Assembly: GCF_002633015.1 (NCBI RefSeq)
Contig: NZ_NSIU01000004.1
Span: forward strand, 32,937-96,936
Source of the DNA: Sulfuricurvum sp. PD_MW2
GTDB taxonomy: Bacteria > Campylobacterota > Campylobacteria > Campylobacterales > Sulfurimonadaceae
Reading direction: 5' to 3'
DNA length: 64,000 nucleotides
Part shown: positions 23,578 to 44,563 of the stretch, one piece after another
Layout of the letters: each line of letters opens with the position of its first letter
Position numbering within the stretch: position 1 is the stretch's first letter
Position numbers and translations under genes: made by a program
Notes under the pieces: generated by a model
The model's database searches: none
What the model was told of the DNA's origin: nothing
The model's input: the letters and a program-made list of their open reading frames with translations, nothing else

Positions 23578-24363
23578 CTAATAATTCGAAATAAAAACCT
23601 CTCTAACCGCCTTTTTACTACCCGATCCTCGAAGTGTATAGTTGATCTCTTTAGTGGACGTGATCTTCATGTCCGCATATAGCTCTCTCACTAGTTCACA
23701 GTCGTTATAGCTCAATAGAAACTTGCCTTTGATACCGTGAAGAAGCTCTGATAGTTGACGATGCTCTGCTTCTCCAAATCCTCCAGTGTGTTGGTAGTAC
23801 TTCTCTGTCGATACATACGGAGGATCACAATAAAAGAACGCATCATCTGCATCATACGTCCGGATCAGCTTATCAAAGCTCATATTCTCAATAGTGACAA
23901 ACTTCAGTCTCTTAGACCATTGTCCAAAGTCTTTGTAGATATCTTTCGGTCGACGTCCACTCTTAGCGTTCATGGCAAACGTAGTCCCCTTAGCTCCAAA
24001 GCTCTGAGAAAGTAGGTAGAAGTAGAAAGCAGCTCGCTCAATATTGTTCCGTGGCTTCATACGTCCGGAGAGAATATCAGCGAATAGTTCACGGCTGATC
24101 AGTAGAGTACTCAAGTACATTGATAGGGACTGTGGATTGGTTCGGATAGCGCGATGAAGGTTGATCAGTTCACCATTGATATCATTGACCACTTCGGAGT
24201 GTTTTGTAGTACAGGGCTTGCGGTATAGAACGTTGAGCGCACCGCCGAACACTTCAACATAGAGACGATGATTTGGGAATAGGGAGACGATATCGTCTGC
24301 GAGTTTTGATTTACCGCCGATCCATGCGAATGGGGCTTTTAGTGTGATTTTTGGATGCTGCAT
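23578..24363 (-). CDS. D12-class DNA adenine N6-methyltransferase (Dam-like)
   Basis: APFAWIGGKSKLADDIVSLFP, YVEVFGGALNVL, DPPY (FFYCDPPYV). ATG at 24363 preferred over GTG 24378. Confidence 0.92.
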   Translation of the reverse strand: MQHPKITLKAPFAWIGGKSKLADDIVSLFPNHRLYVEVFGGALNVLYRKPCTTKHSEVVNDINGELINLHRAIRTNPQSLSMYLSTLLISRELFADILSGRMKPRNNIERAAFYFYLLSQSFGAKGTTFAMNAKSGRRPKDIYKDFGQWSKRLKFVTIENMSFDKLIRTYDADDAFFYCDPPYVSTEKYYQHTGGFGEAEHRQLSELLHGIKGKFLLSYNDCELVRELYADMKITSTKEINYTLRGSGSKKAVREVFISNY

Positions 24364-24470
24364 ATAATTTCCTGACACCGTGTCATATTTTCACGGTCGA
24401 ATTAAGATACCGGAGATAATTCCGGTACCGCTGCATCTCCTTTTGTGGTTAGGGGTGAGGCGGGAGCTTC

Positions 24471-24716
24471 TTACAAACACTTCTCCAGTGCTGCTTCAAA
24501 ATCATAAAGACAACTTTCTAACTTCGGATAGTTCTCCAGCCGTGCTTTCATCCACTGAGCAATATCTCCAGTCTCAGGAGTAGGATCTTCGCATTTAGGC
24601 TTTTTAGTATCGCATTTTTTTGTGATCGTAATCGGCTCATATGGAGCAACTTCTTTTCCGGCACATCCTGAGAAGATCATGACTGCAGTCAAGACCATCA
24701 AATATAGTATTTTCAT
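24471..24716 (-). CDS. Small lipoprotein, Rz1-like outer-membrane spanin candidate
   Basis: Lipobox VMIFSGCAG; overlaps the TM protein upstream; located in the lysis cassette. Confidence 0.6.
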   Translation of the reverse strand: MKILYLMVLTAVMIFSGCAGKEVAPYEPITITKKCDTKKPKCEDPTPETGDIAQWMKARLENYPKLESCLYDFEAALEKCL

Positions 24717-25063
24717 AATTTACTTCCTTCAGCATTTTTACGTGCCTCTTCAGCGATAGCATTCAGATCGGTACAATTATCACCGGTCGGGACGTACTCG
24801 ATCTTTGTTTTAAATACCGGCTTTGCTGCCATTGTTCGATTAAACTCTGCTTCTTTCTTTAGAGCATCGAGTTTATCTCGCTCCATCCATGCTTTCATGA
24901 AAGCAACACTGTCTTTTTCTCGTTTGATTTCAGACTCTTTGGTTTCAACTGTTTGCTGAAGAACGTTGCGCTCTCCGGAGACACTCAAAGTGTAAAAACT
25001 AACCCCAATTAAGAGCATTGAAAAGCCTAATGCAGTTGCAATAAATATCTTTAAATTAACCAC
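24713..25063 (-). CDS. Rz-like inner-membrane spanin candidate
   Basis: N-terminal TM then charged helical region; paired with the lipoprotein ORF. Confidence 0.6.
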   Translation of the reverse strand: MVNLKIFIATALGFSMLLIGVSFYTLSVSGERNVLQQTVETKESEIKREKDSVAFMKAWMERDKLDALKKEAEFNRTMAAKPVFKTKIEYVPTGDNCTDLNAIAEEARKNAEGSKL

Positions 25064-25074
25064 TTTTTATCCCT

Positions 25075-25278
25075 TTATTTATCTTGAACAGATGTTGTAG
25101 TCAGTAAGCGCATGGCGATCATTACCGTTGGAAATATAATCGCATAGAGCAATCCGAATGACGGTGCTGCATGTACTGATAGATAATCTTGAATAGCCTG
25201 TGTTTGAGACTCCATTCCACCAAGTATTCCCATTACAATAGCAATCCAAAAAGTTCGAGTTTTTACGATTTTTTTCAT
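25075..25278 (-). CDS. Holin-like small membrane protein
   Basis: 67 aa, two hydrophobic segments, directly upstream of spanins and downstream of endolysin. Confidence 0.55.
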   Translation of the reverse strand: MKKIVKTRTFWIAIVMGILGGMESQTQAIQDYLSVHAAPSFGLLYAIIFPTVMIAMRLLTTTSVQDK

Positions 25279-25706
25279 GCTACCATCTCTCCGTTTCTGA
25301 GTTGAGCCAAAGTAAGCCCTTTGGAGTCTTGAAAGTGAGGAAGATCTTTCAACGTTTTAAAGTCTCCTCCCCATTCAAGTCCGCATTCTTTACCAATGCG
25401 ACCGATATCCTGCCAAAGCTTTCCATCCTCTCCTGAGGTATTCCATACTGGTTTTCCATGTCGAACCGCTACAACGTCAAAAGCAAGACGGAAGTTATGG
25501 TATGAATAACCGGCTTTAGCATTGGTGACTTTTGCACCTTTGACAGTTCTTCCAATTGCATATAGTGCATCTTGAGATTCATCATCTCGGTAGGTTGCCG
25601 TAAAGACAAGATCAATGCCCAATTCAGCTTCACATCGCTTCTCCATCTTAAGTGCTTTTTCTCGAACCGTTGGGTGCAAATCTTCAAGTTTGCGTGAGGT
25701 AATCAT
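25275..25706 (-). CDS. Endolysin, M15-type L,D/D,D-peptidase
   Basis: VFTATYRDDESQDALYAIGRT..., YSYHNFRLAFDVVAV, WGGDFKTLKDLPHFQ. Confidence 0.85.
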   Translation of the reverse strand: MITSRKLEDLHPTVREKALKMEKRCEAELGIDLVFTATYRDDESQDALYAIGRTVKGAKVTNAKAGYSYHNFRLAFDVVAVRHGKPVWNTSGEDGKLWQDIGRIGKECGLEWGGDFKTLKDLPHFQDSKGLTLAQLRNGEMVA

Positions 25707-25736
25707 TGTGTTCTCCTTTATTTTTAGATTGATTTA

Positions 25737-26000
25737 TCATTCACCCTCCGATTTTTTACAGTGATTTTGCTCGAGCTTTTTTAGGATGCAGCATACGAAG
25801 TTATCGAACCGTGTTGCAGTTCCTGCTTCTTGCCGTCTAGCGATATAAGAGCTGATCGTCTCATCTTGTGATCCGTTCCAAAATATAACGTTGCCCATCT
25901 GATCAAGTACCAAAAGAAAGCGATACCATCGGCTCCTTTTTTCGACATCGTTTTTGAATTTAGTGTAGAGTGCTTCTAACTCTTGAGGTGTACGATTCAT
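25737..26000 (-). CDS. Phage hypothetical protein (tail region)
   Basis: Overlapping ORF in the late operon. Confidence 0.5.
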   Translation of the reverse strand: MNRTPQELEALYTKFKNDVEKRSRWYRFLLVLDQMGNVIFWNGSQDETISSYIARRQEAGTATRFDNFVCCILKKLEQNHCKKSEGE

Positions 26001-26422
26001 GAGAAAAACTTCCCACGCTCGGTGACGAACTGTAATGCGAATTTAGGGAATTCTTCGGCAGTCATAGGTAGTTTTGAACCATTAGCGAAATGGATCACGG
26101 TCGAAGTTAACCCAAGCTCAAACGATGCTTTGACCTGAACCATACCGTCACCATCATCTTTGGTGACTGAGATACGACGATCAGTTCCGTCAGAGTTAGT
26201 TCCATACACAAAACCTATGAGCATTTCTTCATTGCGTGTGTTTTCTGCTTCTTGCTCAGCTTGTTTTTGTAACTCTTCAGCGGTGAACTCCTGTTCTGGA
26301 GTGTTGTTTTTAAGCCATTCATCCAAAAGATCACTCATCCATCCTGTATAGCCATCAGGGATGTGTGTTGATCCATTTATTAGGTATCCATCCCTTTGTT
26401 TTTTAACTGATTCAATTTCCAT
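25997..26422 (-). CDS. Phage hypothetical protein, DUF4376/tail-fibre-assembly-like position
   Basis: 141 aa ORF following the fibre-like gene; family assignment is not certain. Confidence 0.5.
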   Translation of the reverse strand: MEIESVKKQRDGYLINGSTHIPDGYTGWMSDLLDEWLKNNTPEQEFTAEELQKQAEQEAENTRNEEMLIGFVYGTNSDGTDRRISVTKDDGDGMVQVKASFELGLTSTVIHFANGSKLPMTAEEFPKFALQFVTERGKFFS

Positions 26423-26432
26423 TGTTTACTCC

Positions 26433-27938
26433 TTATAAACGTGCATCTGCTTTAAATCCGCCAATACAATAACCCGCCTGCCCAACAGTCATACCAGCTG
26501 TGGATGCTGAGTAAATACCACATTTATGTGTAGTAATCCTATCTGCCGCAGCAGTTAAGTTGGTTATTAATGACCCTGTTCCTTGAAAGTCTATTGTTCC
26601 CGCTGTACCTGCGAAAGAATATAAAGTAATTATTGGAACACCTCTTTTTGCAACTTTAAATTCAATGATTGCACCTTGAAAAGTAGTAGTAGCAGTTATC
26701 CTTGCGCCACTAAAATAGGTATTATTGTCATAAGATTTTTCAAAATATCGCATAACCCTCATTTCTTCAATACCAGTAGGGACATTCTGAAATGTAGTTG
26801 CTACTGATCCCTCTTCGAGTTGTACTTCATAGATTTCAAAATAGTTTGAAGTGGAATCAAATAGATTAACAATTGTTGCCCCCGTTGGGAATAATGACCC
26901 TGCTCTTGATGCATCAGCGGCTAATGTGAAATGTATATCGAATCTTCCCGATGTGTCTTTTGTAATTGTTGATGGCATAGTAAAACTGACGCTATAACGT
27001 GTTTTTCCGGTTGCTGAAACAGTATATTTTTTAGGTGTTAAATAAGCTAGACCCGTACCGTCATAAAACCCTATCCCGTAATCTCCCAATTTGTTTGTGT
27101 TTACGGTAAAGCTTAGAGTTACAGTTTTACCGGCAAGGTTTGCGATATTGTTCCCCTCTAATGATTGAAGGATAGTCGCCATATCCCCACTGGTTAAGGA
27201 TGTGTCGGCTACGGTTGGCTGTACTTTAAGACCACCGCCTACAATGCTTGAAATAGTTGCAACTCCTGTAAATGTAGTATTTGCCCGTCCATACTTCCAC
27301 ATCGTAGAAGCGTAGGGTGTTCCAATACCATTAAAAGTTGCAGTTATACTTGTTGCCTCATACCAAAAATCAAAATGACCATCTATAATGTAATTTTTAA
27401 ATCCGGTGAAAGGTGATAACACTGCCCCATTCATTGAAGGAGAACCAGTAAATGATGGGGAATACATCAATACTGCATAAGTTATTTTTTTAAATGTCAA
27501 TGTAAGACTATCCCAAAAACCGAACTCGTCTGCATTATCCAATGAAGTTTTAGCTATAGCTGAATGTATTTGTGCTCCGACAGATAAAGGTGTCCAACTT
27601 GCAGGTTCTGATATAGGGTTATTGGATGTATTTATAGAACATCTATAATAGAACCCCGCATATGTCCATGACTCACCGACTAATGCGGATGATGTTCCTT
27701 GTATAAACAACCCCTTATAGTTTATCAGTGCAATAGCGATATTAGAAGCAGCTACTGCACTCTCTTCTTTAGCATTGACATTGGATTCAAGATCATTGAT
27801 CTGTGTCACAAATGTAATCAGCTTTGCACCGAGCGATTGAATATAGGCTAAGAATGCATCATATCTTAGTCGAAAGTTTGTTTTATCCGTACTGCTCGGC
27901 GGTGTTGGCGGTGCATCAAAATTTACATTTATTGGCAT
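26433..27938 (-). CDS. Tail fibre / receptor-binding protein candidate
   Basis: 501 aa, coiled-coil N-terminus and beta/Thr-Ser-rich C-terminus, last large gene before lysis. Confidence 0.55.
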   Translation of the reverse strand: MPINVNFDAPPTPPSSTDKTNFRLRYDAFLAYIQSLGAKLITFVTQINDLESNVNAKEESAVAASNIAIALINYKGLFIQGTSSALVGESWTYAGFYYRCSINTSNNPISEPASWTPLSVGAQIHSAIAKTSLDNADEFGFWDSLTLTFKKITYAVLMYSPSFTGSPSMNGAVLSPFTGFKNYIIDGHFDFWYEATSITATFNGIGTPYASTMWKYGRANTTFTGVATISSIVGGGLKVQPTVADTSLTSGDMATILQSLEGNNIANLAGKTVTLSFTVNTNKLGDYGIGFYDGTGLAYLTPKKYTVSATGKTRYSVSFTMPSTITKDTSGRFDIHFTLAADASRAGSLFPTGATIVNLFDSTSNYFEIYEVQLEEGSVATTFQNVPTGIEEMRVMRYFEKSYDNNTYFSGARITATTTFQGAIIEFKVAKRGVPIITLYSFAGTAGTIDFQGTGSLITNLTAAADRITTHKCGIYSASTAGMTVGQAGYCIGGFKADARL

Positions 27939-27951
27939 TGTTTCTCCTTAT

Positions 27952-28866
27952 TTAAACTAACCCGACGATGTCTAGGCTAATAGTAGTTTTTGTTGGATTG
28001 GATGCGGTCTGTCTGAATTTCTGCAGATATCCAAAAACGCTGAATGCTTCATAGGCTTCACCGATAAATACTACCGGTTGACCTTGAATCCGATCGAGCG
28101 ATCGATAGTACGCGGTGATCTGTGGAGTATCACTGTCTAGTGTTGGATTGAGCAGTTTTGCGCTGTTACCTTTTGATAGATAAGTAGCCCCAGTCGATGT
28201 ATCAGTAACGACCGTCGAATAGTCAATACTTGAAAGTTCTACACCCCATTGTGTTGATCCGATGTCTCGCATCATCCCTGCAGCGAATATTCCTAGTTTT
28301 GCCGTTCCTGATCCATTAATAGTTATGACGAATGAAATATTACGGGTAAGGGTTGTACGCTCATAAGTGATATTTCCCTGTGTCTCATCGATCCAGTCTC
28401 CATACCCATACTCTTCATGTGTTGTCGGTTCGGTGATCACCCCGATAGTTATCGGTCCCTCTATGATTGCAGCCGTATCATTATCCATGACAGAGATCAC
28501 TACATCTATTGCATCAAGGTTTCCAAGATATAGAGCATGAGCACCATAGCAAGCAACTGTCATCGTAATAGTTCCGGCATTTACAGCCTGAGTATTTAGG
28601 AACTGATCAAACGCTCTCCATCGATTCTGAGTACCGAGAAATTTCCAAACACCGGTTGGATTTTTGGTTGCGTCATAGACGTTAATAGCATCTTCAGGAC
28701 TTTTACCTACGTTTGCCACCAATGCTTGAAACTCGCCTTTTGATGCACCCGATGATGAGACGATAGCTCCGATCATGTAGTTATTTCCTACTACCCATTC
28801 AGGATATGAGGTGACGGGGATATTTGAGGATAGTAGTGTAATTGCTCCGGGTATCATTACCTTCAT
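27952..28866 (-). CDS. Tail-tip-associated structural protein candidate
   Basis: 304 aa beta-rich ORF directly downstream of the tape measure gene. Confidence 0.5.
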   Translation of the reverse strand: MKVMIPGAITLLSSNIPVTSYPEWVVGNNYMIGAIVSSSGASKGEFQALVANVGKSPEDAINVYDATKNPTGVWKFLGTQNRWRAFDQFLNTQAVNAGTITMTVACYGAHALYLGNLDAIDVVISVMDNDTAAIIEGPITIGVITEPTTHEEYGYGDWIDETQGNITYERTTLTRNISFVITINGSGTAKLGIFAAGMMRDIGSTQWGVELSSIDYSTVVTDTSTGATYLSKGNSAKLLNPTLDSDTPQITAYYRSLDRIQGQPVVFIGEAYEAFSVFGYLQKFRQTASNPTKTTISLDIVGLV

Positions 28867-31800
28867 CTATACTCTCCCAGCTGCGATTTGAGCTTGCGTC
28901 GTTTGGTTCTGTAGCTCGCGGAATATTCGTTGAAGAGTGTCAAGCATAGGTTTTAATACGGTGCCGTCATTTCTTCCTGTAATAGATGTTGCATCACCGA
29001 CACGTGATAGCATCATGTCAGATGGTTTGGTATAGGTGGTTAGAGCTTTAATGCTATCGGTATATTTCGTATTAGCATTAGTTGCAGCCATTATTGCTTC
29101 GCCAAGACTTTTCCATGTAGTAATCGTCTCAGGAGTAAAGGATGATTTCATAGCCTCTTCATATTTGGAGAGATAGTTCTCTACTGTAATACCGCTAACC
29201 CCCATTTGATTCTCAAGCGCTGCCAAATCTTTAGTGAGATAATCTGCCGTAAATTTTAGCTGCTCTATGGTTCCGCTACCGAGCTTCCACTCATTGAATG
29301 ATCTTGTACTTGATACATAAGTTCCGACAGAGGTAGCGAATGCTTGCGAAATCGTTTGATTGATAGATTTTGCATAATCAGTCCAATAAGAATAAATCGT
29401 TGAAAACGTAGAACTCGATTGCTGAACATCTGTAAATGCTGTAATGAAGTTTTTTGCAAGTTGATCTTGGAAGGTAGCCCCTGCATATCTGCCTGCAGCA
29501 AGAGTTATTTCTTTAGAGGTACCAAGCTGTACGAGAAGATAATCATAGGTATCAAACAACCCTTTGATTTTTGATTTTTCTACGTCCGATAATGGCGAAT
29601 ACGTTGTCCAGCTGCTTGAGCTAAACCATGACTTCTTTTTATAATCTACATAGGTCTGAGCGTTACTTCCATCCTCTGTAGATGATCCAAAATAATAACC
29701 GGATCCTTTTACTTTTGTACTACCGAACATACCACCTACAAGTGAACCGAGTGCTGCTCCAATTACGGCTCCTACCGGTCCGGCGATCAAAGCTCCTGCT
29801 GCACCGCCAATTGCCCCATAGGTTCCGGCTTTAGTATCAGCCCCTAGTAGTTTATCCCCTACTGATCCAAGTACATAACCTCCTGCTGCTCCAAGTGCGG
29901 CACCGCCAAGCATAGCTCCAGCACCTTCAGCTCCACTAGCTCCGGCTGATGCCCAAGGGGAAGATAATCCCATCCCAAAGTCACCGACTCCCATTGCTGC
30001 TGATGCAGCCGCATCGGATGAAAAACCGACATATTGCATACCTGATGCTAGTGATGCTCCCGCTTGACCAAATCCAGCGGCAATCGATGATGATATTCCT
30101 CCGGTCAAAGCTCCGTAAATGGTATTAGCGGATGATGCAATACTAATTGCATTCATTACATCAGCGTAATCATTTCCTTGTTTTGTGACTTGACCATTCG
30201 CATCGTAAACGGTACCGCCTTTTGTGGTTGTGAAACCTGCATCATCTTTAGTTGCACCGATCAATGCTGCAGGAGTAACTGCCGCGCCGAATACCGATCC
30301 AAGACCGCCATAACTCTTGAATAAATTGATAATTCCGCCGGTACTGTTTTCTCCGGTTCCGAGAATAGAATCTGCTAGCGATTTTGATAAACTGCGGGTC
30401 ATAGACTGTGTGATCGACGACCAAAAGTCTTTTAACCAGTTCCCAAATGAAACGAATTTACCATTCATAGCGTTAAAGAATTGTTCATCCATCGCTTTGT
30501 TCATGTTGTCAAACAGACCGGATAGAAATTGATTATCTCTCTTCCATTGTTCTTTTTGGAAGGTATCGTTATCTTTAGCTTTGATAGCCAACATTTGAGC
30601 GTTGGTATACCATCCTGTTTCGGCAAGCCTTTTCATCTTCGCTTCTTCTTGAAGATAGTATGCAGATGATGTATCGCCTATCGCCGTGTAATATTCAGTA
30701 TTAGCGGTTAGCAATCCTGCATTGTAGGTTTTGATTGCTTCTTTGGCTTGCTCATCAGCTTGGAACTGCACCTGAGCTTTTTGTTCAAAATATTTTCTAT
30801 CTTGATCTATCTTATATTGATTGATCTCATCGGTTGAAAGGATGCCCTGTTTAACCATTTCATCGACTTGGAGCATTTGCTTTATATAATAAGCTGTATC
30901 CTCTTCACCGATAGTACTGTAATGATCAATGAGTAATTTATTTTTTTCTGTCTGCTCTTTTTGATAGAGTGCTGTCATAGCAGAGGATGTCAGCTCTGCG
31001 ATCTTAACTTCATCTACTTTTGCTTTGCGGTATTTTTCAGCTTGATCATTGATAGATGCAATAGCTTTGTCATGCTCATTACCTGTAAATCCGGCAATGT
31101 CTTTGTTGATCGATAGATAAGCTTGTTTTAGATTTTCTGCAGCAATCGCCGCTTTTTTAGCAGCTTCCTCTTCAGCCTTTTTCTCAGCATCGGTTTTTTG
31201 GTACGGGTTTGTAATAAGTTCATCCACTACAGGTGCATTGATATTTTTGAGTTTTTCATAGTAGCTTACAAGTTGTAACTGCTCTGCATGAAGAGCATCT
31301 TTACGCTTTCTTAGATTATCCACAATATCATCATTTTTGGAAGACTGATAAGCAAATCCCGAGCGTTTTTTTAATTCTGCAATGATTGATTTTTCTTCGG
31401 CATAAACTTCTTTACTTCTTAGTGAAACATCATGGAGTTGCTGTGCAGTATCTTTTCCAGAAAAAGTATTTAAGTCCGACATAAAGAGTTTACTTCCTGC
31501 CGTTTTTGCATTATTTGAAGCTATTTCATTTGTTAAACTTTTGTACTCATAAAGTCCTCCAATAACTGCTGCAATAGAAGCTCCTATTATTACCCATGGA
31601 TTCACTGCTACTGCAGTATTGAAACTTATTTGAGATACTGTAGCTATTTTTGTTGCTATATCAATTTCTTTAAGAGCTTTAATTCCTGTTCCTAGAAGAG
31701 TAACTCCATAGAAAGATCCTGAAATAATTACAGCTTCTTTTGTGTAATGAGATAGATTATCTAGCTCTCCATTTTGATTTTGTAAAAGTTTAGTTAATTC

Positions 31801-32622
31801 AATAGTTCCTGATTTTGCAAGATCAAATATTCCAGAGTCATGAACTGTACTCATTTTGAATTGATTCCATGAATCTTCAAGACTGGATGTTAAACCGCTC
31901 CAGCTGTTTTCCATCTCTTTACCGGCTGCACCGAAATCGCTGAGTTTACCGATCAAGAAATCATAGACGTCACCTTGTTTGATATGCGTTTTGATTTGTT
32001 CATTGGTAAGTCCGATGTTTTTGGCGACTACTGAGTTCATATCAATATTGCCGCTTAGTACAGATGCCATTTCTTGTGATAACTGATCCATAGGTACTCT
32101 CATAGCCGCTGCAGCTTGAGTCATCAATGTACTATATTTAACAGTTTCCTGAACTGAAAAGCCAAGTTTCATTGAAGGTCCAAGAGCTGCTTGAAATCCT
32201 GCAGTTAATTGTTCAAGAGTGGCTGGAGTTTCCAAGTTAGATTTTCTAAGAAGCTGTACAGCTTCTGCAGAGGCTTTTTGTGCCATCGCAAATTTCTGAG
32301 ATGCATCAATATGTTTACCCATAGAGGTAATGTTTTGAGAGTTGACGGAGATCAGTGAAGCAATACCGATCTTCATTTGTTCAAATTGACCGGTGAGCTC
32401 TATACCTGATTTAACGACCGAAGATATGGCACTGTACCCAATGAATGAAGCAATGAGTGTTTTGACCGATGAAGCCATACGGTCAAGACTGGAGGAAGTA
32501 TTATCAATCTCTTTTGAAGCAGTTTTTGAAACCTTTTCAATGCCATCGATGGAGCTAATGGCTTCTTGTACTGCTTTTACGTCGGCGGTAGTGCTGATTT
32601 TGATTTTAAGTTCATTTGACAT
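28867..32622 (-). CDS. Phage tail tape measure protein
   Basis: 1251 aa; long alpha-helical N-terminal and central regions, Gly/Ala-rich hydrophobic segment (GGAAGALIAGPVGAVIGAALGSLVGGMFG). Confidence 0.88.
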   Translation of the reverse strand: MSNELKIKISTTADVKAVQEAISSIDGIEKVSKTASKEIDNTSSSLDRMASSVKTLIASFIGYSAISSVVKSGIELTGQFEQMKIGIASLISVNSQNITSMGKHIDASQKFAMAQKASAEAVQLLRKSNLETPATLEQLTAGFQAALGPSMKLGFSVQETVKYSTLMTQAAAAMRVPMDQLSQEMASVLSGNIDMNSVVAKNIGLTNEQIKTHIKQGDVYDFLIGKLSDFGAAGKEMENSWSGLTSSLEDSWNQFKMSTVHDSGIFDLAKSGTIELTKLLQNQNGELDNLSHYTKEAVIISGSFYGVTLLGTGIKALKEIDIATKIATVSQISFNTAVAVNPWVIIGASIAAVIGGLYEYKSLTNEIASNNAKTAGSKLFMSDLNTFSGKDTAQQLHDVSLRSKEVYAEEKSIIAELKKRSGFAYQSSKNDDIVDNLRKRKDALHAEQLQLVSYYEKLKNINAPVVDELITNPYQKTDAEKKAEEEAAKKAAIAAENLKQAYLSINKDIAGFTGNEHDKAIASINDQAEKYRKAKVDEVKIAELTSSAMTALYQKEQTEKNKLLIDHYSTIGEEDTAYYIKQMLQVDEMVKQGILSTDEINQYKIDQDRKYFEQKAQVQFQADEQAKEAIKTYNAGLLTANTEYYTAIGDTSSAYYLQEEAKMKRLAETGWYTNAQMLAIKAKDNDTFQKEQWKRDNQFLSGLFDNMNKAMDEQFFNAMNGKFVSFGNWLKDFWSSITQSMTRSLSKSLADSILGTGENSTGGIINLFKSYGGLGSVFGAAVTPAALIGATKDDAGFTTTKGGTVYDANGQVTKQGNDYADVMNAISIASSANTIYGALTGGISSSIAAGFGQAGASLASGMQYVGFSSDAAASAAMGVGDFGMGLSSPWASAGASGAEGAGAMLGGAALGAAGGYVLGSVGDKLLGADTKAGTYGAIGGAAGALIAGPVGAVIGAALGSLVGGMFGSTKVKGSGYYFGSSTEDGSNAQTYVDYKKKSWFSSSSWTTYSPLSDVEKSKIKGLFDTYDYLLVQLGTSKEITLAAGRYAGATFQDQLAKNFITAFTDVQQSSSTFSTIYSYWTDYAKSINQTISQAFATSVGTYVSSTRSFNEWKLGSGTIEQLKFTADYLTKDLAALENQMGVSGITVENYLSKYEEAMKSSFTPETITTWKSLGEAIMAATNANTKYTDSIKALTTYTKPSDMMLSRVGDATSITGRNDGTVLKPMLDTLQRIFRELQNQTTQAQIAAGRV

Positions 32623-32700
32623 ACACTACCTCCATGAAATATTTATTGAGCTATCTCAGGACTGCTGCTATTGCATACGCAGTGCCGTTGATCATAGGTT

Positions 32701-33458
32701 TTATGATTTTTTGGATGATATTCCTGCGTTAAACTCAGCCGCCATTTTTCGGAACAATCCGTATGTATCAATGACATCCAAATTCTCTTGGATACAAAAA
32801 TCTTTTGTAAAATCGTAATTGACCTCCGCCCCGTTCATACTTCCCATAAGAGACAATATAAAACCATAGGCGATAGGTTGCTCATCCGCTGCGAGCCATA
32901 CAATGGCATCAGGTTCGAAGTCCTCTTCTCTGTATCCATCACTGAGCATATGGAAGCTTGATTCGCCTTTTGCCCATTCGCCCGCAAAACGTATGAGGCG
33001 ATCTACTTTTTTTTCTGTAACTCCGCAATCTGCTCACCGATTGCAGAAATAATCTTTTTTGGATCGATATTTTTAGATCGGATCTCACTCATAAATGCCG
33101 CTTTATCCTCACCGTCTAGGGTTAGCTCTAACCGACGCATCAGTGAACTGGAAAGCATTTTTTCCGGATTTGCTTCTTTGATCTTTTTTTGAAGATCGAT
33201 GAGCTCTTTTTTGAGGTCTTTATTCTCCCAAAGCAATTTCGCTTTTTCAATAAATCCGACACATTCGATGAGTGCTTGATTTGTTTCAATATCATTGATG
33301 ATTGATGCTACACGCTGAGCATTTTCATTGACTGCTTCGATAGCTGAAGCAAGCTCATCCATCTCTTTTTGCTGCGTTGAATTAAGCTCATGTAATACGA
33401 GATTAAATCCTACACCGTCGATCATGATTAAAACGGGGTATTTCGTTAGAATTTCCAT
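32701..33458 (-). CDS. Tail assembly chaperone G/GT-like pair: ORF 33003..33458 with -1 frameshift into the frame of 32701..32949
   Basis: 0-frame ends CAG AAA AAA AAG TAG; heptamer A AAA AAG at 33006-33012; the -1 frame is open from the slippery site (VDRLIRFAGEWAKGESSFHMLSDGYREED...) to 32701; immediately upstream of the tape measure gene. Confidence 0.85.
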
Positions 33459-33471
33459 TGTTCACTTCTCC

Positions 33472-34389
33472 TTATTGATGCGTAATTATGAAGTTGGCAT
33501 TAGCAACTCCATCGTTTTGAGCGCGAAATTTACGAGTCAATTTCACACGACCTTTTTCATCTGCTTCACCAAGCTCTAGGGCAAAAGCATGTGGAACTTC
33601 AAGGAGTACTTGATTTCCTGCATCTCCGACTGTTATCAGAATCGCTTTAAGTTGACCGTTACCCATATCAATCCATGATTGCTCATCAGTTCCTTTTGTT
33701 TTGATAGCCACCAAGCTGATTGTTGGATCAAAGTTTGCGATGTAAAATTCGCTCATGCCTGTGGCATAGGTATCTTGAACATCATTACCGACATCAAGTT
33801 CAAATGAATCACAGTTAATAGGTGTTCCGCTGATCGTAATAGCCGAAATCTTTGAAATGATTGGAATAATTCCTGCATTCAATGTGACGGTAGGATTCGG
33901 ATCAGCTTCAGCTTGAGGAGTTGTATATCCGCTTACGGAAAATACTGCTTTTAATGGTTCTCCGACTTTACCGCTAATTTTCATATTGGCAGCTGCACCG
34001 TTCACGGTACGTGAATATCCATCACTGAATACTTTGACTACCCCCGACCCTGAAGATGTAATTCCTCCAGGTTTATAGACCGCTTTTGATCCCGGTGTAA
34101 TAGTTTCATACAGACCGGCAATTTTATAGAGTTCGCATAGCTCAGGAGCAGCACCTAACGTAGCTGAAGCTTTGATAACAGTTGGAATATCAAATGTCAC
34201 TTTTGTATTGTTCGGATCAACATACCCTTTTTTATTTCCTAAAGCACCGGTTCCTACAGCATTGATTTCGCCTGTAGATACTTTTGGACTCAAAAGGACA
34301 AATCCATCCAATTGGACAACATTGACAGCACTTGGAACTGATCCGGACTTTGCCAATAGTGTATTTTTATTCGTTTCCTGTACCGACAT
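33472..34389 (-). CDS. Major tail tube protein candidate
   Basis: 305 aa beta-rich ORF upstream of chaperone and tape measure genes. Confidence 0.6.
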   Translation of the reverse strand: MSVQETNKNTLLAKSGSVPSAVNVVQLDGFVLLSPKVSTGEINAVGTGALGNKKGYVDPNNTKVTFDIPTVIKASATLGAAPELCELYKIAGLYETITPGSKAVYKPGGITSSGSGVVKVFSDGYSRTVNGAAANMKISGKVGEPLKAVFSVSGYTTPQAEADPNPTVTLNAGIIPIISKISAITISGTPINCDSFELDVGNDVQDTYATGMSEFYIANFDPTISLVAIKTKGTDEQSWIDMGNGQLKAILITVGDAGNQVLLEVPHAFALELGEADEKGRVKLTRKFRAQNDGVANANFIITHQ

Positions 34390-34552
34390 CGTTTTTTACC
34401 TCCTCATTTGGAATAGATACTGAAGCTTTTCCTGTTTCGATGAGCTTGTCTGCAATTACAGGATCAACTGTTACGGTACCGCTGTACTCTTTTTTATCGA
34501 TGATGAGCGTTGTTGCTTCATCTATTTCAATATCAACTTTTTTAACCGCCAT
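34367..34552 (-). CDS. Phage small hypothetical protein
   Basis: 61 aa, overlapping tail operon ORF. Confidence 0.5.
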   Translation of the reverse strand: MAVKKVDIEIDEATTLIIDKKEYSGTVTVDPVIADKLIETGKASVSIPNEEVKNDVGTGNE

Positions 34553-34769
34553 GATTTCCTCTTTTTATAAGATGCTTTTTAACAATCTCTGCATCGGACG
34601 ATTCAAGTACGATGGCTTCAAGCAGATCGATCTGCTTTTGTTGGGAGGTAATAATCTCTTTGAGCTGACCGATTTGTGTTTCCTGATTTCGGATCGTTTT
34701 CCAAAGAGGAATGATGATAATTGCCACCATAAATTGGACAAGTGGTAGCCAATCTTTAATCGCTTCCAT
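34542..34769 (-). CDS. Small membrane-anchored coiled-coil phage protein
   Basis: One TM (VQFMVAIIIIPLW) followed by a coiled coil. Confidence 0.5.
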   Translation of the reverse strand: MEAIKDWLPLVQFMVAIIIIPLWKTIRNQETQIGQLKEIITSQQKQIDLLEAIVLESSDAEIVKKHLIKRGNHGG

Positions 34770-35119
34770 TACGACTCCATATCAATTATTTTTACGTTTA
34801 TTCGATAGATAAGAAGACCATTATCCGCTACTGCAATCGGTAGCGTTTGCGTATGTTCTATATCCGTTCTGATCCGACTGATTTCATATAAGGAATGTTC
34901 AATATCCTCAACGACTTGTTTTAATCCCGATTCTCCTGAAATCGAAAATCCGGCGCAAAAAATGGCGAATTCTCGATCTACAATACCCATTGCGGTGCGG
35001 ATACCACCGTCATAAAGGATGAATACACCTGATTCAGATAACTCTGCTTGATCTATCTCAATCAAATCAATTCCATTCAATGCCGATTTGATGAGCGCTT
35101 GAGAAGATGTTATTCCCAT
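34769..35119 (-). CDS. Head-tail connector/Mu gp37-like protein candidate
   Basis: Position and size match the Mu gp36/gp37 region; weak similarity. Confidence 0.45.
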   Translation of the reverse strand: MGITSSQALIKSALNGIDLIEIDQAELSESGVFILYDGGIRTAMGIVDREFAIFCAGFSISGESGLKQVVEDIEHSLYEISRIRTDIEHTQTLPIAVADNGLLIYRINVKIIDMES

Positions 35120-35427
35120 TCGCTTACCCTTTGTCCTATGAAAACCGTTGCGCTAGTAGTAACCAACGGATCAGATGAAGGTGAAGATCGGACTACTTTC
35201 ATAGCTGTATCGAAGATCGTCTTATCTGTTTCGGTCGGTTGGATTTTGGTTGCGAGCTTGAAACGATAGACTCCGATATCGAGCATCGCATACAAAGCAA
35301 CGCTTTTACCCTCAATAATCTCTAACACTTCATTGGCAGCACGTGTGATCGCTTCAGGAGTGATCTGTGCCGGATTGGTTAGATTGAGACGTAACCGTTC
35401 ATCGAGTTTCGATTCAAACTCATTCAT
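35110..35427 (-). CDS. DUF1320-like (Mu gp36-like) protein
   Basis: LDERLRLNLTNPAQITPEAITRAANEVLEIIEGKSVALYAMLDIG..., head-tail connector position. Confidence 0.55.
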   Translation of the reverse strand: MNEFESKLDERLRLNLTNPAQITPEAITRAANEVLEIIEGKSVALYAMLDIGVYRFKLATKIQPTETDKTIFDTAMKVVRSSPSSDPLVTTSATVFIGQRVSEWE

Positions 35428-35430
35428 TTA

Positions 35431-35646
35431 TCAGCCTTGATGTTTTTCTCGAAGTAGTCGAGCTGCTTCACGATTAGTCATCGGTTTTACTTCCGAATCA
35501 ATCACCGGTTCCTCTTCGACTGTCGGTACTTCATCGGATGTTTCAGTCTCAACCGTCGAAAGGTTTTCTTCCGGAGGGGTCGTATCTGTTACCGGTTCCT
35601 CTTCGACTGTCGGTACTTCAGGTTTTGGAGTTTTATTTCTTGCCAT
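35431..35646 (-). CDS. Small acidic phage protein with internal repeat
   Basis: 71 aa with EVPTVEEEPV repeated twice. Confidence 0.55.
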   Translation of the reverse strand: MARNKTPKPEVPTVEEEPVTDTTPPEENLSTVETETSDEVPTVEEEPVIDSEVKPMTNREAARLLREKHQG

Positions 35647-35656
35647 AATTTACTCC

Positions 35657-36538
35657 TTACGCTACGGTTCCGGTAGATTTATGAGCGAGCTGCCATAAAC
35701 CGTATCCGGCATTACAACGGCTATCTACACCGTAACGGAACTTGTCACGCATAAAGACGTTTTCATCGTCTTCTTTATCCATCGCGACGAACTTGATCTC
35801 TTTGTTTTTTTGGAGGATCGTCGGCTTGATCGGACGGCTGTTATCAACGATATACCAAGCATTCGGATCGGTAAGCCAATCAGCTACAAGATATTCCATC
35901 AACCCTTTGGAAGTATTAGACTCTCCATTTGCAAGGAAATCTTTAGTCAAGATGTCGATTGCCACTTGCTCCAGCTCAGGTGGAACGATCAGCAACGTAG
36001 GACGAATACGGAGCGGTTTTCCGGTATCGGTAGTGATACCGCGCATCTCTGCACGTGCTGCAAGCAATGACGCATTAGCCAGTTTCTTATTACTAAGATT
36101 ACTGAATGCAACTCCACCTACATCATGATCAACCGCAAAGAATGCTTTGCCGTCATAACATACGCCATTACTTTCAAGAAGACCGAATGTAAGCTCGTCA
36201 TAATGCTCTACAGCTTCGGATGCCATCATTTGAATACGAGGCTTAACGATACCGAGGTTATCGTAGGTAATATCATCTGCATCCACTTCGATAGTTGCTT
36301 CAAACTTTTTACCGATGATTTGGTACGTATATGCACTCAAATCTTTGAGAACACGATCACCTACCCATTCACGCATACGCGGAAAATCTCCGAGCCATGC
36401 GTAGTCCACCGTTTTTGTGCTGGCAATGACTTCCGTTGCGATTTTGCTTTGATCACCGGATACGGTAGTAAGTTGATCAGTAAAGATTTTTGAAAAACCT
36501 TTATTGATGGCTTGTAAATTGGTACGATTAATAATCAT
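35657..36538 (-). CDS. Mu-like major head subunit (gpT-like)
   Basis: MIINRTNLQAINKGFSKIF..., DFPRMREWVGDRVLKDLSAYTYQIIGKKFEATIEVDADDI; Mu gpT family. Confidence 0.9.
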   Translation of the reverse strand: MIINRTNLQAINKGFSKIFTDQLTTVSGDQSKIATEVIASTKTVDYAWLGDFPRMREWVGDRVLKDLSAYTYQIIGKKFEATIEVDADDITYDNLGIVKPRIQMMASEAVEHYDELTFGLLESNGVCYDGKAFFAVDHDVGGVAFSNLSNKKLANASLLAARAEMRGITTDTGKPLRIRPTLLIVPPELEQVAIDILTKDFLANGESNTSKGLMEYLVADWLTDPNAWYIVDNSRPIKPTILQKNKEIKFVAMDKEDDENVFMRDKFRYGVDSRCNAGYGLWQLAHKSTGTVA

Positions 36539-36540
36539 GG

Positions 36541-37293
36541 TTACTCCTTAATCCCAAGTTGGGCATAAACTGATTTAGTAGCTTCGTCTTCTTCTTGAGC
36601 GTTAGCTTCAACACCGGTGCGACCTGTCAAATGTTTTGTGCTGGTTTTATTCAATTCCAAGAATTGATCCAATGCCGCACCTTCCAACGTCATAGCGAAC
36701 TCTTTCGCATTTGGAAGAAGCTCACCGGCTGCAATACGCGCATCGATGGTTTGGGCTTTTAGTTTTTGGTTAGCTTCTTTAAGCTGCTCGCTCAAAGTAG
36801 CTACTTTTGCATTCAATTCGACATTGGTGTTTTTTGTCGTATTCAACTCTTTTAGGAGTTCCTCTTTTTCCATACTTTCATCCTCATCTTTTTTATTTAA
36901 TGCTGTATTGAGCAGGTTTGGCGTATTGACAAGACCTACACTGTCCAATCCGATTACACGGCGGTTATCGCCCATCACATAGACTGGAGACAAATAACGA
37001 TAAAAACGTTTATCTAGGCATTCAGTACCGAGTTCATTCGGTTCAAGTTCAGCATAGATGCCGTCGGCTCGTTCTTCGAACTTTGTATAATCAAACCATC
37101 CAGCCGCACGCTCGAAGCTGTGATTCTCATCGAGTGGAATATGCAGTCCGTTAGCCATAATTGACGCTATCAGCTCTGCTGCATCAATCACGTACGATCT
37201 GCCATCCAACCCAACGACTTGACCTACCGGAGATACTTTTACTTTATCTCCAGCCTTGTAGTTAAGTTCTAATGGTTTACCTTCGAGTTTCAC
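36541..37293 (-). CDS. Mu-like prohead protease/scaffold (gpI-like)
   Basis: GRSYVIDAAELIASIMANGLHIPLDENHSFERAAGWFDYTKFEERADGIYAELEPNELG; coiled-coil scaffold region at C-terminus. Confidence 0.87.
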   Translation of the reverse strand: MKLEGKPLELNYKAGDKVKVSPVGQVVGLDGRSYVIDAAELIASIMANGLHIPLDENHSFERAAGWFDYTKFEERADGIYAELEPNELGTECLDKRFYRYLSPVYVMGDNRRVIGLDSVGLVNTPNLLNTALNKKDEDESMEKEELLKELNTTKNTNVELNAKVATLSEQLKEANQKLKAQTIDARIAAGELLPNAKEFAMTLEGAALDQFLELNKTSTKHLTGRTGVEANAQEEDEATKSVYAQLGIKE

Positions 37294-37432
37294 AGCTCCT
37301 CCAGTGTTGAATTATTGAAGTCGGCAGTATGGCGCAACCCCTAGAGCAAAATCACTCTATATACAGACAGGTGGAGTGACCGAAATTTTCTTTGGGGGTA
37401 CACTGCGATTTATTCTTTAATAAAGGGACGCG

Positions 37433-37924
37433 ATGGCTCCTAAAATTAGTCGTGAGATTGCGCGAAGTATGTTTGTAGAGGGTTTGGCTGTATCCGATAT
37501 AGCAACGACCTACGGTGTTACTGAAGCGGCGATCTATTATCACAAGAACCAAGATTTAAAAGAGGGGATCGATTGGGAATCTCTCAAGCTCGCTAAAAGC
37601 CGTGATGCTAAAAATATCGATATTAAAGAAAATGAGTTTTTAAATACTCTGATCTCCAGCTTCGAAAAAGATCTCAAAAAACTCGAAGAGATTGAAAACC
37701 CTGCAGAGCGACTAGGTATCCTCTCTGATTATGCTAAAACCTACTACCGTCTCAAAGCCCCTGTTAAAACCGATTGTAAAACCCAAGTCTCTACGGCAAT
37801 TACTCAGACGATTACCGTTGTTGCGAATATCGCTCTTGAGCTAAAACATACCGATGTTGTTAATTTTCTCTCCGAGCACTCTGATCGAATAATTACCGAG
37901 ACTTTCAAACATGTTAAGAAATAA
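37433..37924 (+). CDS. DUF1804-like small-terminase/DNA-binding protein
   Basis: N-terminal HTH (ARSMFVEGLAVSDIATTYGVTEAAIYYHK), next to TerL. Confidence 0.7.
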   Translation: MAPKISREIARSMFVEGLAVSDIATTYGVTEAAIYYHKNQDLKEGIDWESLKLAKSRDAKNIDIKENEFLNTLISSFEKDLKKLEEIENPAERLGILSDYAKTYYRLKAPVKTDCKTQVSTAITQTITVVANIALELKHTDVVNFLSEHSDRIITETFKHVKK

Positions 37925-38013
37925 GCCCCTAGAAGCGTTTTTAACCCCTTTAGGCTATGTCGGTATAGGTTTGGGTGTTATCGTGCGAGTTAAACGGGAG
38001 TTAAACACATTAG

Positions 38014-39552
38014 GTGGCGTTTATGAATGAAGAGATAGAAAAATTAAAATCATATTTAAAAACTCTTCCGGCACTTGCTGATTCAGATCGTAAAAACAGG
38101 ATTGATCGAGCCACGAATGATTACCGTTATTTTGTGCAGACGTACTTTCCGCATCACATTGATTTTCAAACCGAAGAAACCAGTGTATTTCGTAACTTTG
38201 TCTATGATGATCTCCCCGACCTTATAGAGAGATGGAGGCTGATTGAACTTGAAGCCTATCGCGGTGCGGCAAAGACGACCGTAACCACACGTCTTATGAC
38301 CCTATGGGTAATGGTAACGCTTCGCAAACGCTACGGGATTATCATCTCCAGTACCAACGATGTAGTTGTAGAGACGATGGAAACGTTCAAGGCAGAGCTG
38401 GAAGATAATGCGCGGTTGATCGCTGACTTTGATATTCGCATCGGAACTCCGTGGACGGATCATGAGATTGTATTTTATATCGGCGATGAAGCAGTTAAGA
38501 TCAGAGCCTATGGTGCAGGTAAAAAGATCAGGGGTTCCAACTTTTTAGGACGTCGCCCCGATTGGATTGCTATCGATGACATCGAGAACGATGAAAACGT
38601 CGAGAGTAAAAACCAACGAGATAAGCTATACCGATGGTTCGTTAAAGCAATCCTAAAACTTCCATCTCGGAAAAGTAAAACACATACTTTCCTAATTGTT
38701 GGTACTCGCTTACATCATGATTCACTATTAGCCCGCATCTCAAAGCGTGCAGATTGTTTCCATCGCAACTTCCCATTAGTTATTCAGTGGCCATCACGAC
38801 TCGATGAACTTACGAAAGAAAATATATCACTTGATATTGTTGGCGATGCAGTGATCGATGATCCTGATATTGATTTACTAACTGTATTTTTAGACTTTTT
38901 AGAGGATCGGGAAAGCTTTTTCTCTGAAATGCAAAATCAGCCAACTAGTATAGATGGATTAACATTTGGGCAATACACAACGTTTTCAGAATGGCCTCAT
39001 GTTGACTCTTGGAGTATTGGAGTTGATCCCGCCCTTGGTAAAACAAAAGGGGACTACTTCGGATTAGCAGCACTCGGATATGTAAAGGCGGAAAAACGTT
39101 ATTACGCACGGGTACAGGGTTATAAAATCAAACCTGAGAAAATGATCCCGCTAATTATTGAATTGTTTGTCGCATTGCGTGCGGATGGAGTCCCCGTCAA
39201 GATTGCCATAGAGACTCAGCAATTCCAAGAGTTTTTTAAAGATACGATGAAAACAAAATCAGCAGAAATGGGGATACCTTTACCTGTCGTAGAAATAAAT
39301 AACAGAGCCGCCAAAGAACTGCGTATTGACTCATTGTCTCCCTATGTATCTGATGGAACAATACCTATCGATGAGCGAAGTCATTTACTCATCGAAGAGC
39401 TTAATACATATCCAAAACCTCCGCATGATGACTGCTTGGATGCTCTCGAAATGGCGTTTAGGATTGCGTCACGTGCTGCCGGATTAGATATGAAAGCCGT
39501 TGAACGTGTACAAAAAACATTTAGATTAACCCCGAAAGGACGCTTCGAATGA
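38014..39552 (+). CDS. Terminase large subunit (Mu gp28-like)
   Basis: ATPase-like EAYRGAAKTTVTTRLMTLW, DWIAIDDIENDENVES, nuclease-domain DPALGKTKGDYFGLAALG. Confidence 0.88.
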   Translation: MAFMNEEIEKLKSYLKTLPALADSDRKNRIDRATNDYRYFVQTYFPHHIDFQTEETSVFRNFVYDDLPDLIERWRLIELEAYRGAAKTTVTTRLMTLWVMVTLRKRYGIIISSTNDVVVETMETFKAELEDNARLIADFDIRIGTPWTDHEIVFYIGDEAVKIRAYGAGKKIRGSNFLGRRPDWIAIDDIENDENVESKNQRDKLYRWFVKAILKLPSRKSKTHTFLIVGTRLHHDSLLARISKRADCFHRNFPLVIQWPSRLDELTKENISLDIVGDAVIDDPDIDLLTVFLDFLEDRESFFSEMQNQPTSIDGLTFGQYTTFSEWPHVDSWSIGVDPALGKTKGDYFGLAALGYVKAEKRYYARVQGYKIKPEKMIPLIIELFVALRADGVPVKIAIETQQFQEFFKDTMKTKSAEMGIPLPVVEINNRAAKELRIDSLSPYVSDGTIPIDERSHLLIEELNTYPKPPHDDCLDALEMAFRIASRAAGLDMKAVERVQKTFRLTPKGRFE

Positions 39553-40973
39553 AAAAAGATGATAAGGCAAAACAAGCCCCGATTTTCTTGGAGATCGATC
39601 AACAATCTGCTCTCCCAAAGATCAACATAAAAACCGTATTGGCAGCAATAGCGAATGAAGACATTACTGAACTGATCCCAGTCTATACCGCATTTTTAAA
39701 ACGGGATCTTCATCTATCCGCTGAAATGATAAAGCGCAGGGGTCAGATCGTTTCCATTCCATACCTGATCAAGTGTGATGATCCAAAGACTAAAGAGATA
39801 CTTGATGGATATCTTGGCTCTATTGATTTTAGTGCGTTATTGATGGATCTTTCAACGGCGATACCGTATGGCTTCTCATGCATCGATATGGTTTACAGTG
39901 CAGTTGATGGAGTCTTTGCTCCGTATGAGTTCCATCTTATTCATCAACGCTACTTCGAATACGAACGCCGAACACGCTTGCTGACGTTTCGTGAGAGTTC
40001 TATCGTAAAGACCGATCCGAGTGCAAACAGTGATAAGTTCATTCTGCACTATCATAAAAGCGACGGAGGAGAGCTGGTCGATTATGGGATCATGGGGCAG
40101 ATCATCTTTACCGCGCTATTAAAACACGCTACCATCAACGCCAATATGCAGTATTTCGATACGCTTGGAGTTCCTCCGGTTATCGTAAAGATTGATTCCT
40201 CCAGCGACGATGAACTCAAAAGCATTCTCAATCAGGTCATGAGCCTGCGTTCAAACTCAATCGGACTGTTCCCGCAAAACGCGGTTGTCGATCTGCTTGA
40301 AGGTAAAGCCTCTAAAACTGAGTTCCTTGATTTTATTCGCTATTGCGACAGTGTAATGAGCCACTACATCATTGGAGCTACGCTTTCAGGAGGAAAAGAT
40401 CAGACGGGCAGCTTCGCACTTGGAAAGGTTCATGATGAACGTCGTAAAGACATCATGCGCCTTGATGCACGGTTACTTCAAAAACCGATCAATGATCTGC
40501 TCAAACGGATACTTGCACTCAATACACCGACTCCAAAGCCTTTTACTTTTGTATTCGATATCGGAGACGAAACAGATGAGAAGCTGCTCTCTGAGGTGTA
40601 TAAGAACTTATCCGATGCAGGGTATGACATACCACCTGAGCATATCGGAAAAATGTTCTCTATCGAGGGAGTTACGCGTAAATCGGATGCATCTGCCCCA
40701 AAAGCTCAAAACACGAAAGAGAAGAACTCTACCGCTCCAGCACCGTTTCGTATCGAAGATCAAGCCGCTGCCGTTGATACAAAATCTATCGAGCGTAACA
40801 TCAAGGCTCAGATGGAGGGTATTTTAGAGAGTGCTTCGGATTATGAAGAGGCGATTGCTTTGCTGATCGAAGCATTTCCTGATATGAGTTTTGATGATCT
40901 CTCCGGAGAGCTTGGAGAGCTAATTGCCAAAGGTCTTATAATCGGAGCTGCGGAGGTTGCAAGTGGTGGATGA
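39549..40973 (+). CDS. Portal protein, DUF935/Mu gp29-like
   Basis: AAIANEDITELIPVYTAFLKRDLHLSAEMIKRRGQI..., SGGKDQTGSFALGKVHDERR. Confidence 0.87.
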   Translation: MKKDDKAKQAPIFLEIDQQSALPKINIKTVLAAIANEDITELIPVYTAFLKRDLHLSAEMIKRRGQIVSIPYLIKCDDPKTKEILDGYLGSIDFSALLMDLSTAIPYGFSCIDMVYSAVDGVFAPYEFHLIHQRYFEYERRTRLLTFRESSIVKTDPSANSDKFILHYHKSDGGELVDYGIMGQIIFTALLKHATINANMQYFDTLGVPPVIVKIDSSSDDELKSILNQVMSLRSNSIGLFPQNAVVDLLEGKASKTEFLDFIRYCDSVMSHYIIGATLSGGKDQTGSFALGKVHDERRKDIMRLDARLLQKPINDLLKRILALNTPTPKPFTFVFDIGDETDEKLLSEVYKNLSDAGYDIPPEHIGKMFSIEGVTRKSDASAPKAQNTKEKNSTAPAPFRIEDQAAAVDTKSIERNIKAQMEGILESASDYEEAIALLIEAFPDMSFDDLSGELGELIAKGLIIGAAEVASGG

Positions 40974-42252
40974 AACCCTGCTGCATCATACGTTTTCTCT
41001 GCCTCCCAAGAAAGCAATCGATTACCTATCCCAAAAAGGGTATGCGCTTTCATTCAACTATGATGAGATCATGCATGAATCGCATCATACCGCGTTCACC
41101 GTTGCTAAGGTAACTCGCCTTGATCTATTGAGCGACATTCATAAGAGCCTATTGGATGCGATGCAAAACGGTACTTCATTCAAAGACTGGAAACAAAACC
41201 TTACCCCGACGCTTGTCAAATACGGATGGTATGGAGATACAACCGTTACTGATCCGCGTACAGGTGAGACGAAAGAGATCTATGTCGGATCACGCCGTTT
41301 ACGGACGATCTTTGATACCAATATGCAAGTGGCTTATTCCGCAGGTCGTCATCGTGAGATGATGGATCTTGTCGATTCGGTGTACTGGAGATACGTAACG
41401 CGGGATGATGGAAAAGTGCGCCATTCTCATGCGCTGCTGCATGGAATGATACGCCATCGTGACGATCCGGTATGGAAAAAGATATACCCTCTTAATGATT
41501 GGCATTGCCGATGCAAAGTCCAAGCTTACAGTATGGAAGATATTACTTCACGAGGATGGAAGATCATAGATCAGAGTACTCCTCTTCCCGATGGGTTTCA
41601 AGTACATCCCGATTGGGCATACGATGTCGGAGCCATGTCGAAATACAGTGCCGAGAACGCTTATTGGCAAAAGGTTTCTTCGATCACCTGCAAAGAACCG
41701 AACGCCAAAGTAAGAACCGTTCTATGCCCGTTTGCGGATGCAGTCAATGCCGGTTATCGTGATGATATGAGAAAGCTGCTCCCGAATGCTCAGGAGTGGA
41801 GTGCTTTTATTGATCGCGCACTGGATACATCGATTAAACGGCATGAAGAGATGCGCCTTGGATATCTTAGTTTCATTGCTCCGTTAGCCTCATTTTTGGC
41901 TGAACTGAAACCGCAAAGCGATTTGATCCTTGCTGATACCGGAACCGTTCGAAACCTAAAATCAAAGGGTGCGGAAAGTGTCAGCAAACTGAAAAAACAT
42001 ACCGAGGATATTAAGAACACTTTTCAAACCGAGGATATACGGACTCTGATTGAAAAAATAGATACTCCGGATGCAGCATATTATGATGGAAAGCTGATCT
42101 TGGTCTATTCATTGTCTGATAGTGCTAAGTTGGTTATTGGATTGGATATCGGGGATAAAAACAGGATATATCACACACTTTACAGTGGACAGCTTTATGA
42201 GGATGATACTAGTTTGGAGTTAGCTTTACGTGGAAAGAAGAAGATATTTTGA
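40966..42252 (+). CDS. Mu gpF-like head morphogenesis protein with extended C-terminal nuclease-like domain
   Basis: Phage_Mu_F-type HAL/WHCRC region (DDGKVRHSHALLHGMIRHRDDPVWKKIYPLNDWHCRCKVQAYS) plus about 140 aa C-terminal extension. Confidence 0.85.
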   Translation: MDETLLHHTFSLPPKKAIDYLSQKGYALSFNYDEIMHESHHTAFTVAKVTRLDLLSDIHKSLLDAMQNGTSFKDWKQNLTPTLVKYGWYGDTTVTDPRTGETKEIYVGSRRLRTIFDTNMQVAYSAGRHREMMDLVDSVYWRYVTRDDGKVRHSHALLHGMIRHRDDPVWKKIYPLNDWHCRCKVQAYSMEDITSRGWKIIDQSTPLPDGFQVHPDWAYDVGAMSKYSAENAYWQKVSSITCKEPNAKVRTVLCPFADAVNAGYRDDMRKLLPNAQEWSAFIDRALDTSIKRHEEMRLGYLSFIAPLASFLAELKPQSDLILADTGTVRNLKSKGAESVSKLKKHTEDIKNTFQTEDIRTLIEKIDTPDAAYYDGKLILVYSLSDSAKLVIGLDIGDKNRIYHTLYSGQLYEDDTSLELALRGKKKIF

Positions 42253-42318
42253 GTAAGCGAGCCGGACTCGAACCGACGACCGAACTTAATCTGTTTTACC
42301 GCTAAACCTATCGCCTAC
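42253..42318 (-). other. tRNA-like element (degenerate)
   Basis: Minus strand: TAGGCGA/TCGCTTA acceptor helix (extendable), D-arm GTTT-AGCGGTA-AAAC, T-arm GTCGG-TTCGAGT-CCGGC; anticodon arm shortened. Confidence 0.6.
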
Positions 42319-42368
42319 CCAATGTTTAATTATACATCAAAAGTTAAACGTTTTACAAGGAGATTTCT

Positions 42369-43437: not shown

Positions 43438-43578
43438 GATGGAGTCCTTCTTAAATGACTTCGTTTTGAGGAGATGTACCACATAGACCACTTAACCACT
43501 ACCACACGCATACCACTCACAAAGTGGCTAAAATAGGAGCTTTTATAGTGGTTATGGTTATGTGGTACGTGTGGTAGA

Positions 43579-44481: not shown

Positions 44482-44563
44482 TTTTTTTACCTTTTGAATT
44501 TAAAATGCAAGTTGACTCAATCGCCCCCATTAAAATGGAGGCTGTTAAATCCACGTCATTGTT

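Follow-up and report, generated by a model that had tools for sequence, protein, structure and literature searches.

How two neighbouring open reading frames (ORFs) among the tail genes of a prophage in Sulfuricurvum sp. PD_MW2 are translated, as two separate genes or as one gene continued through a change of reading frame, is the question raised by the locus studied here. The window, i.e., the whole 64,000-nucleotide stretch of DNA that was analysed, carries a Mu-like transposable prophage of approximate extent 23578..53379. The prophage encodes a Mu transposase (48527-50704), a MuB-like ATPase (47744-48457) and an S24 repressor (52298-52909), along with DUF3164, a Mu-type portal, gpF, a protease and a major head protein. 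Its late region is split divergently: the terminase, portal, gpF and Neck genes lie on the plus strand (37433-42851), and the protease, capsid and all tail genes lie on the minus strand, opposite this block. Near the repressor end, positions 53400-53560 contain short repeats, GTCGCTTAGT and GTCCATAA, which are possibly transposase binding sites or a phage end.

The two frames of interest lie on the minus strand. ORF1 (33003..33458), a putative G-like tail assembly chaperone gene with homologues elsewhere, encodes 151 aa, is preceded by the Shine-Dalgarno (SD) sequence AAGGAG and ends with GAG TTA CAG AAA AAA AAG TAG. The slippery heptamer A_AAA_AAG (33006..33012), part of a run of eight A's, is in the zero frame and abuts the stop codon TAG (33003..33005), so that the spacer between them is zero. 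A -1 shift at the heptamer leads into GTA GAT CGC CTC and so on, that is, 19 codons (VDRLIRFAGEWAKGESSFH) followed by the ORF starting at ATG 32949. This T-like -1 frame (32701..33006) runs for 101 codons from GTA (33006-33004) to its stop, and the predicted G-T fusion (32701..33458) would comprise 252 aa. A preliminary description of this stretch had proposed a -1 programmed frameshift in a tail chaperone pair; the end of ORF1 that it gave is exact base for base, as are the heptamer directly against the stop and the -1 frame open into the ORF 32701..32949, and its fusion of about 252 aa was reproduced on recomputation.

The gene order is that of the lambda G/GT class, with the pair placed between the tail tube and tape measure genes. 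Downstream, 78 nt separate the end of the second frame from the start of the gene for the tail tape measure protein (28867..32622, minus strand, 1251 aa), which was assigned by PHROG 10093 (E 9.8e-61) and is related to the tape measures of NrS and Helicobacter phages; the earlier claim that the pair lies immediately upstream of the tape measure gene is thus borne out. Upstream, 13 nt separate ORF1 from a gene for a 305-aa protein (33472..34389, minus strand), which is probably the tail tube (major tail) protein. The latter assignment is based on its position and on homologues directly upstream of the pair in several relatives, and the NCBIfam tail tube cut-off is passed by the gene at the tube position in one relative only, a Campylobacter provirus (L053). 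The fold model of the 305-aa protein was too poor for a structure search. In the same provirus, the tape measure gene is broken into several ORFs (L053:4926-6200), and this copy is therefore probably decayed or misassembled.

Relatives were sought by profile searches of Campylobacterota genomes, with a follow-up via the tape measure gene. With the window included, these searches gave 26 loci in which the pair is complete, most of them divergent; the 25 others belong to several families of the order or to phages of Nitratiruptor and Helicobacter. Querying named phages and plasmids with the ORF1 protein gave no match, and there it was the tape measure and capsid that led to the relatives; scans of viral contigs returned near-identical Campylobacter copies only or were empty. 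Rejected candidates comprised chance matches (L001, L024-L025), ribosomal protein L9 (L045-L048, L050) and short partial matches within ORFs of about 300-360 aa (L013-L023, L026-L029). A second copy in genome G256 (L030) keeps A_AAA_AAC TAA, albeit with a second frame that ends at 40 codons; with the site present and the second frame truncated, it was left out of the 26.

A heptamer by itself carries little weight, because 151 slippery heptamers occur in frame among the 185 ORFs of the window. ORF1 alone has two further copies of A_AAA_AAG, at 33183 and 33054, where the -1 frames are only 24 and 6 codons long. Heptamers of the form X_XXY_YYZ directly before a stop are, by contrast, rare. In a background set of 200 distinct ORFs (120 aa or longer) from the window and the fetched loci, 14 end in this way; 12 of these 14 belong to the ORF1 gene family, one is an unrelated ORF, and one comes from a tape-measure frame that is interrupted, of which it is a fragment. 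AAA-AAG accounts for 23% of Lys-Lys codon pairs, and all family members with Lys-Lys at the slip site use it.

Conservation across the relatives is the decisive evidence for the predicted frameshift site. In 26/26 loci having the second frame, a zero-frame X_XXY_YYZ stands near the end of ORF1 (A_AAA_AAG in 17, A_AAA_AAC in six and G_GGA_AAG in three) and gives access to a -1 frame 79-116 codons long; the translation of this frame is conserved from the heptamer onwards. The other two frames are shorter, variable and not conserved, the zero-frame readthrough ranging from 1 to 55 codons and the +1 frame from 1 to 36 codons. The -1 frame opens just 7 nt before the heptamer end in L005, L007, L038, L039 and L056; being closed until the heptamer, it could be entered by a slip only there. 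In L036 and L037, which come from the host genus of the window, the heptamer is G_GGA_AAG, as in lambda, the stop is still adjacent and the second frame is conserved, a change that retains a slip site but not the lysines. The expectation in the preliminary description that the A-run and the -1 frame would be conserved thus holds for the -1 frame and the heptamer, and fails for the A-run itself. Relatives with the slippery run interrupted and both ORFs kept were sought, and none was seen. The homologue in L041 (genome G061) has neither heptamer nor second frame, its tape measure gene starting 35 nt after ORF1, and L039, from the same genus, has both; judged from its sequence, L041 is a natural case of loss. 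As in the lambda G/GT class, the putative slip site and the shifted frame are conserved together.

Gene callers would start the second ORF at ATG 32949, 53 nt past the TAG, and annotations of related phages indeed show two hypothetical genes, as expected if the second ORF were a separate gene translated from this ATG or by re-initiation after the TAG. Nevertheless, ATG 32949 has no SD sequence, whereas the tube, ORF1 and tape measure genes have good ones (-9.3 kcal/mol for the ORF1 duplex). The conservation of the -1 frame also extends over the 19 codons upstream of the ATG, where 12 of 19 residues (63%) are identical to those of L031 and 15 of the 24 substitutions between the window and L031 affect the third base of a -1-frame codon; substitutions follow the codon positions of this frame in most pairs compared. 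Furthermore, relatives lack a usable start nearby. For instance, the second frame of L007 has no ATG or GTG anywhere, and its only candidate is a TTG at +146. Two separate genes are, in the light of these observations, very improbable. Readthrough of the adjacent TAG, which might be suggested by a zero frame open for 55 codons past the stop in the window, is a far poorer prospect, since this extension is only 1-43 codons in relatives and is not conserved, and since the substitutions track the -1 frame. We attach the least credence of all to a decayed single gene or a homopolymer sequencing error: long A-runs are error-prone, but the architecture is shared by 26 loci across many species and assemblies, and this conservation refutes the idea.

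The same fusion could also arise if RNA polymerase added or dropped A's in the run, so that some mRNAs would encode it. The run of eight A's in the window is of a suitable length, as A-runs above 7 are reported to permit transcriptional slippage (PMC3711429). Nevertheless, L004 and L008 have six A's only, and L036, L037 and L060 carry GGGAAAG, with the same architecture in all five. Ribosomal slippage of tandem tRNAs is favoured because it is the in-register heptamer, and not the length of the A-run, that is conserved. We regard transcriptional slippage as an improbable account of the pair, although somewhat less so than two separate genes, and it may make a minor contribution at the A8 of the window. 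Several observations count against the frameshift reading. The A_AAA_AAC found at six loci is reported to be far less shift-prone than A_AAA_AAG in Escherichia coli (PMC5009743); the window shows no significant downstream RNA structure, and its 5' SD-like element is weak and variable among relatives; and its two proteins match no curated chaperone family, nor the ORF1 model any solved chaperone. On balance, a -1 frameshift is by far the best reading on account of (i) the position between the tube and tape measure genes, (ii) the conservation of heptamer and -1 frame at 26 loci, (iii) the want of a good second start and (iv) the joint absence of heptamer and second frame in L041. We are thus confident that the proposal of the preliminary description is right, and that ORF1 and the second frame form a lambda G/GT-type -1 frameshift pair in a Mu-like prophage.

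The heptamer abuts the zero-frame stop in 18/26 loci, which span three G families without detectable relation to one another, and the spacer ranges from 0 to 60 nt across the loci; in SEA-PHAGES annotations it averages 26 nt (PMC10885494). Of the 26 stops beside slip sites, none is TGA; all are TAA or, often, TAG, as against 58% TAA, 21% TAG and 21% TGA (41/200 TGA) in the background of 200 ORFs. These counts of spacers and stop codons are only suggestive because the loci are related. We tentatively raise the idea, which we consider rather unlikely, that the abutting stop contributes to the signal: when it occupies the A site and release is slow, the tRNAs in the P and E sites would slip back by one base. 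Such a coupling to termination would explain the zero spacer in 18/26 loci, the absence of TGA and the use of A_AAA_AAC. If this is the case, frameshifting would be tuned by the level of release factor. In work on HIV-1, a stop so positioned was shown to be readable ahead of slippage, but there it reduced frameshifting by about 70% in human cells (PMC4373837).

Stimulatory elements are less uniform than the slip site. A weak SD-like GGAG (33021..33024, minus strand), located roughly 8 nt before the heptamer, is a possible 5' stimulator with a duplex energy of -6.1 kcal/mol; the corresponding values in relatives are -2.1 to -7.6 kcal/mol, and the element is not conserved. Downstream RNA structure in the window was not significant (z 0.02 to -1.3). 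Strong downstream hairpins occur in L011, L007 and L006, and some relatives have z below -3, but single-sequence folding of the window and its relatives revealed no common downstream hairpin or pseudoknot.

The pair appears to resemble G/GT in its position and two-product architecture rather than in any sequence kinship to curated chaperone families, as neither of the two ORFs of the window matched Pfam (including Phage_TAC and DUF1799), the PHROG tail chaperonin or NCBIfam. The second frame of Nitratiruptor phage NrS-4 alone matches DUF1799 above the cut-off (and Phage_TAC_18 below it), and its sequence link to the family of the window is not significant. For the T domain, homology was detected with the domain at the same position in Helicobacter prophages (hhalign 99.1%) and with that of L040. 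The AlphaFold model of ORF1 (pLDDT 89) has an N-terminal beta hairpin followed by long helices; a Foldseek search with it found no PDB match at E below 0.001, and thus no solved chaperone, and the best viral match was an unnamed phage protein (E 2e-8).

The basic phenomenon has reportedly been known since the work on lambda by Levin and others in 1993 and that of Xu and others in 2004. The pair of the window adds a new member, so far without annotation, to the lambda G/GT class, and the mechanism itself is not new. Lambda G/G-T matches its position between tube and tape measure and its predicted -1 slip, with a short and an extended protein, but the lambda slip site lies 15 nt before the stop, as against 0 nt in the window, and the sequences have no detectable relation. 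In Mu, gp41 and its frameshift product (Mu_56) occupy the same position in a Mu-like phage and are annotated as a verified frameshift chaperone; the shift in Mu is -2, whereas that proposed for the window prophage is -1 on A_AAA_AAG. A Mu-type -2 shift was rejected for the window, where it takes a -1 shift to enter the conserved second frame and the +1 frame (equivalent to -2) is open for 21 codons only.

Tail chaperones made by frameshifting were already known, including examples with A_AAA_AAG (PMC3483164, PMC10885494). PMC3483164, citing Xu 2004, names PVL, psiM2, VT1-Sakai, ul36 and AH2 as phages with A_AAA_AAG tail chaperones. These share the heptamer, the gene position and the predicted -1 shift with the window, but the spacer to the stop is 21 nt in PVL and 57 nt in psiM2, and no sequence relation to the window pair is detectable. 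Our frame scan recovers the slip sites of lambda, PVL and psiM2. The zero spacer, found in 18/26 loci, is what sets the Campylobacterota pairs apart from those of lambda, PVL and psiM2. The closest counterparts, NrS-4 and the Helicobacter prophages BK070145-BK070158, have a homologous tape measure and a G/T pair in the same place with the heptamer 0-3 nt from the stop, albeit with a G part that is much shorter than that of the window and not recognisably related to it, and the Helicobacter prophages use A_AAA_AAC. No NrS-4 or Helicobacter record is annotated as frameshifted, and in NrS-1, NrS-4 and Helicobacter prophages (L056-L062) we observed predicted G/T frameshift pairs that lie between the tube and tape measure genes and lack annotation as such. 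Outside phages, E. coli dnaX has the same A_AAA_AAG heptamer in a host gene of unrelated function, where a 3' hairpin and a 5' SD stimulate frameshifting to about 50% efficiency (PMC3711429).

If the frameshift operates as we infer, most ribosomes would terminate at the TAG and release the 151-aa G-like protein. A minority, with two lysyl-tRNAs on A_AAA_AAG, would slip back by one base, bypass the TAG and read on for 101 codons to yield the 252-aa G-T protein. In lambda, the G part binds the tape measure and the T part recruits tube subunits (PMC5009743). By analogy, the G-like part would coat the tape measure protein, the T-like part would recruit tail tube subunits, and the slip rate would set the G:GT ratio, which matters for tail assembly.

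For Campylobacterota phages, in which gene callers give either two hypothetical genes or only the first, the present reading corrects the annotation of a widespread and unlabelled family of tail chaperones. The family also offers a natural series of slip sites at one gene position (A_AAA_AAG, A_AAA_AAC and G_GGA_AAG, with six to eight A's and spacers of 0-60 nt), which is useful for learning how -1 frameshifting is set by a stop codon close by.
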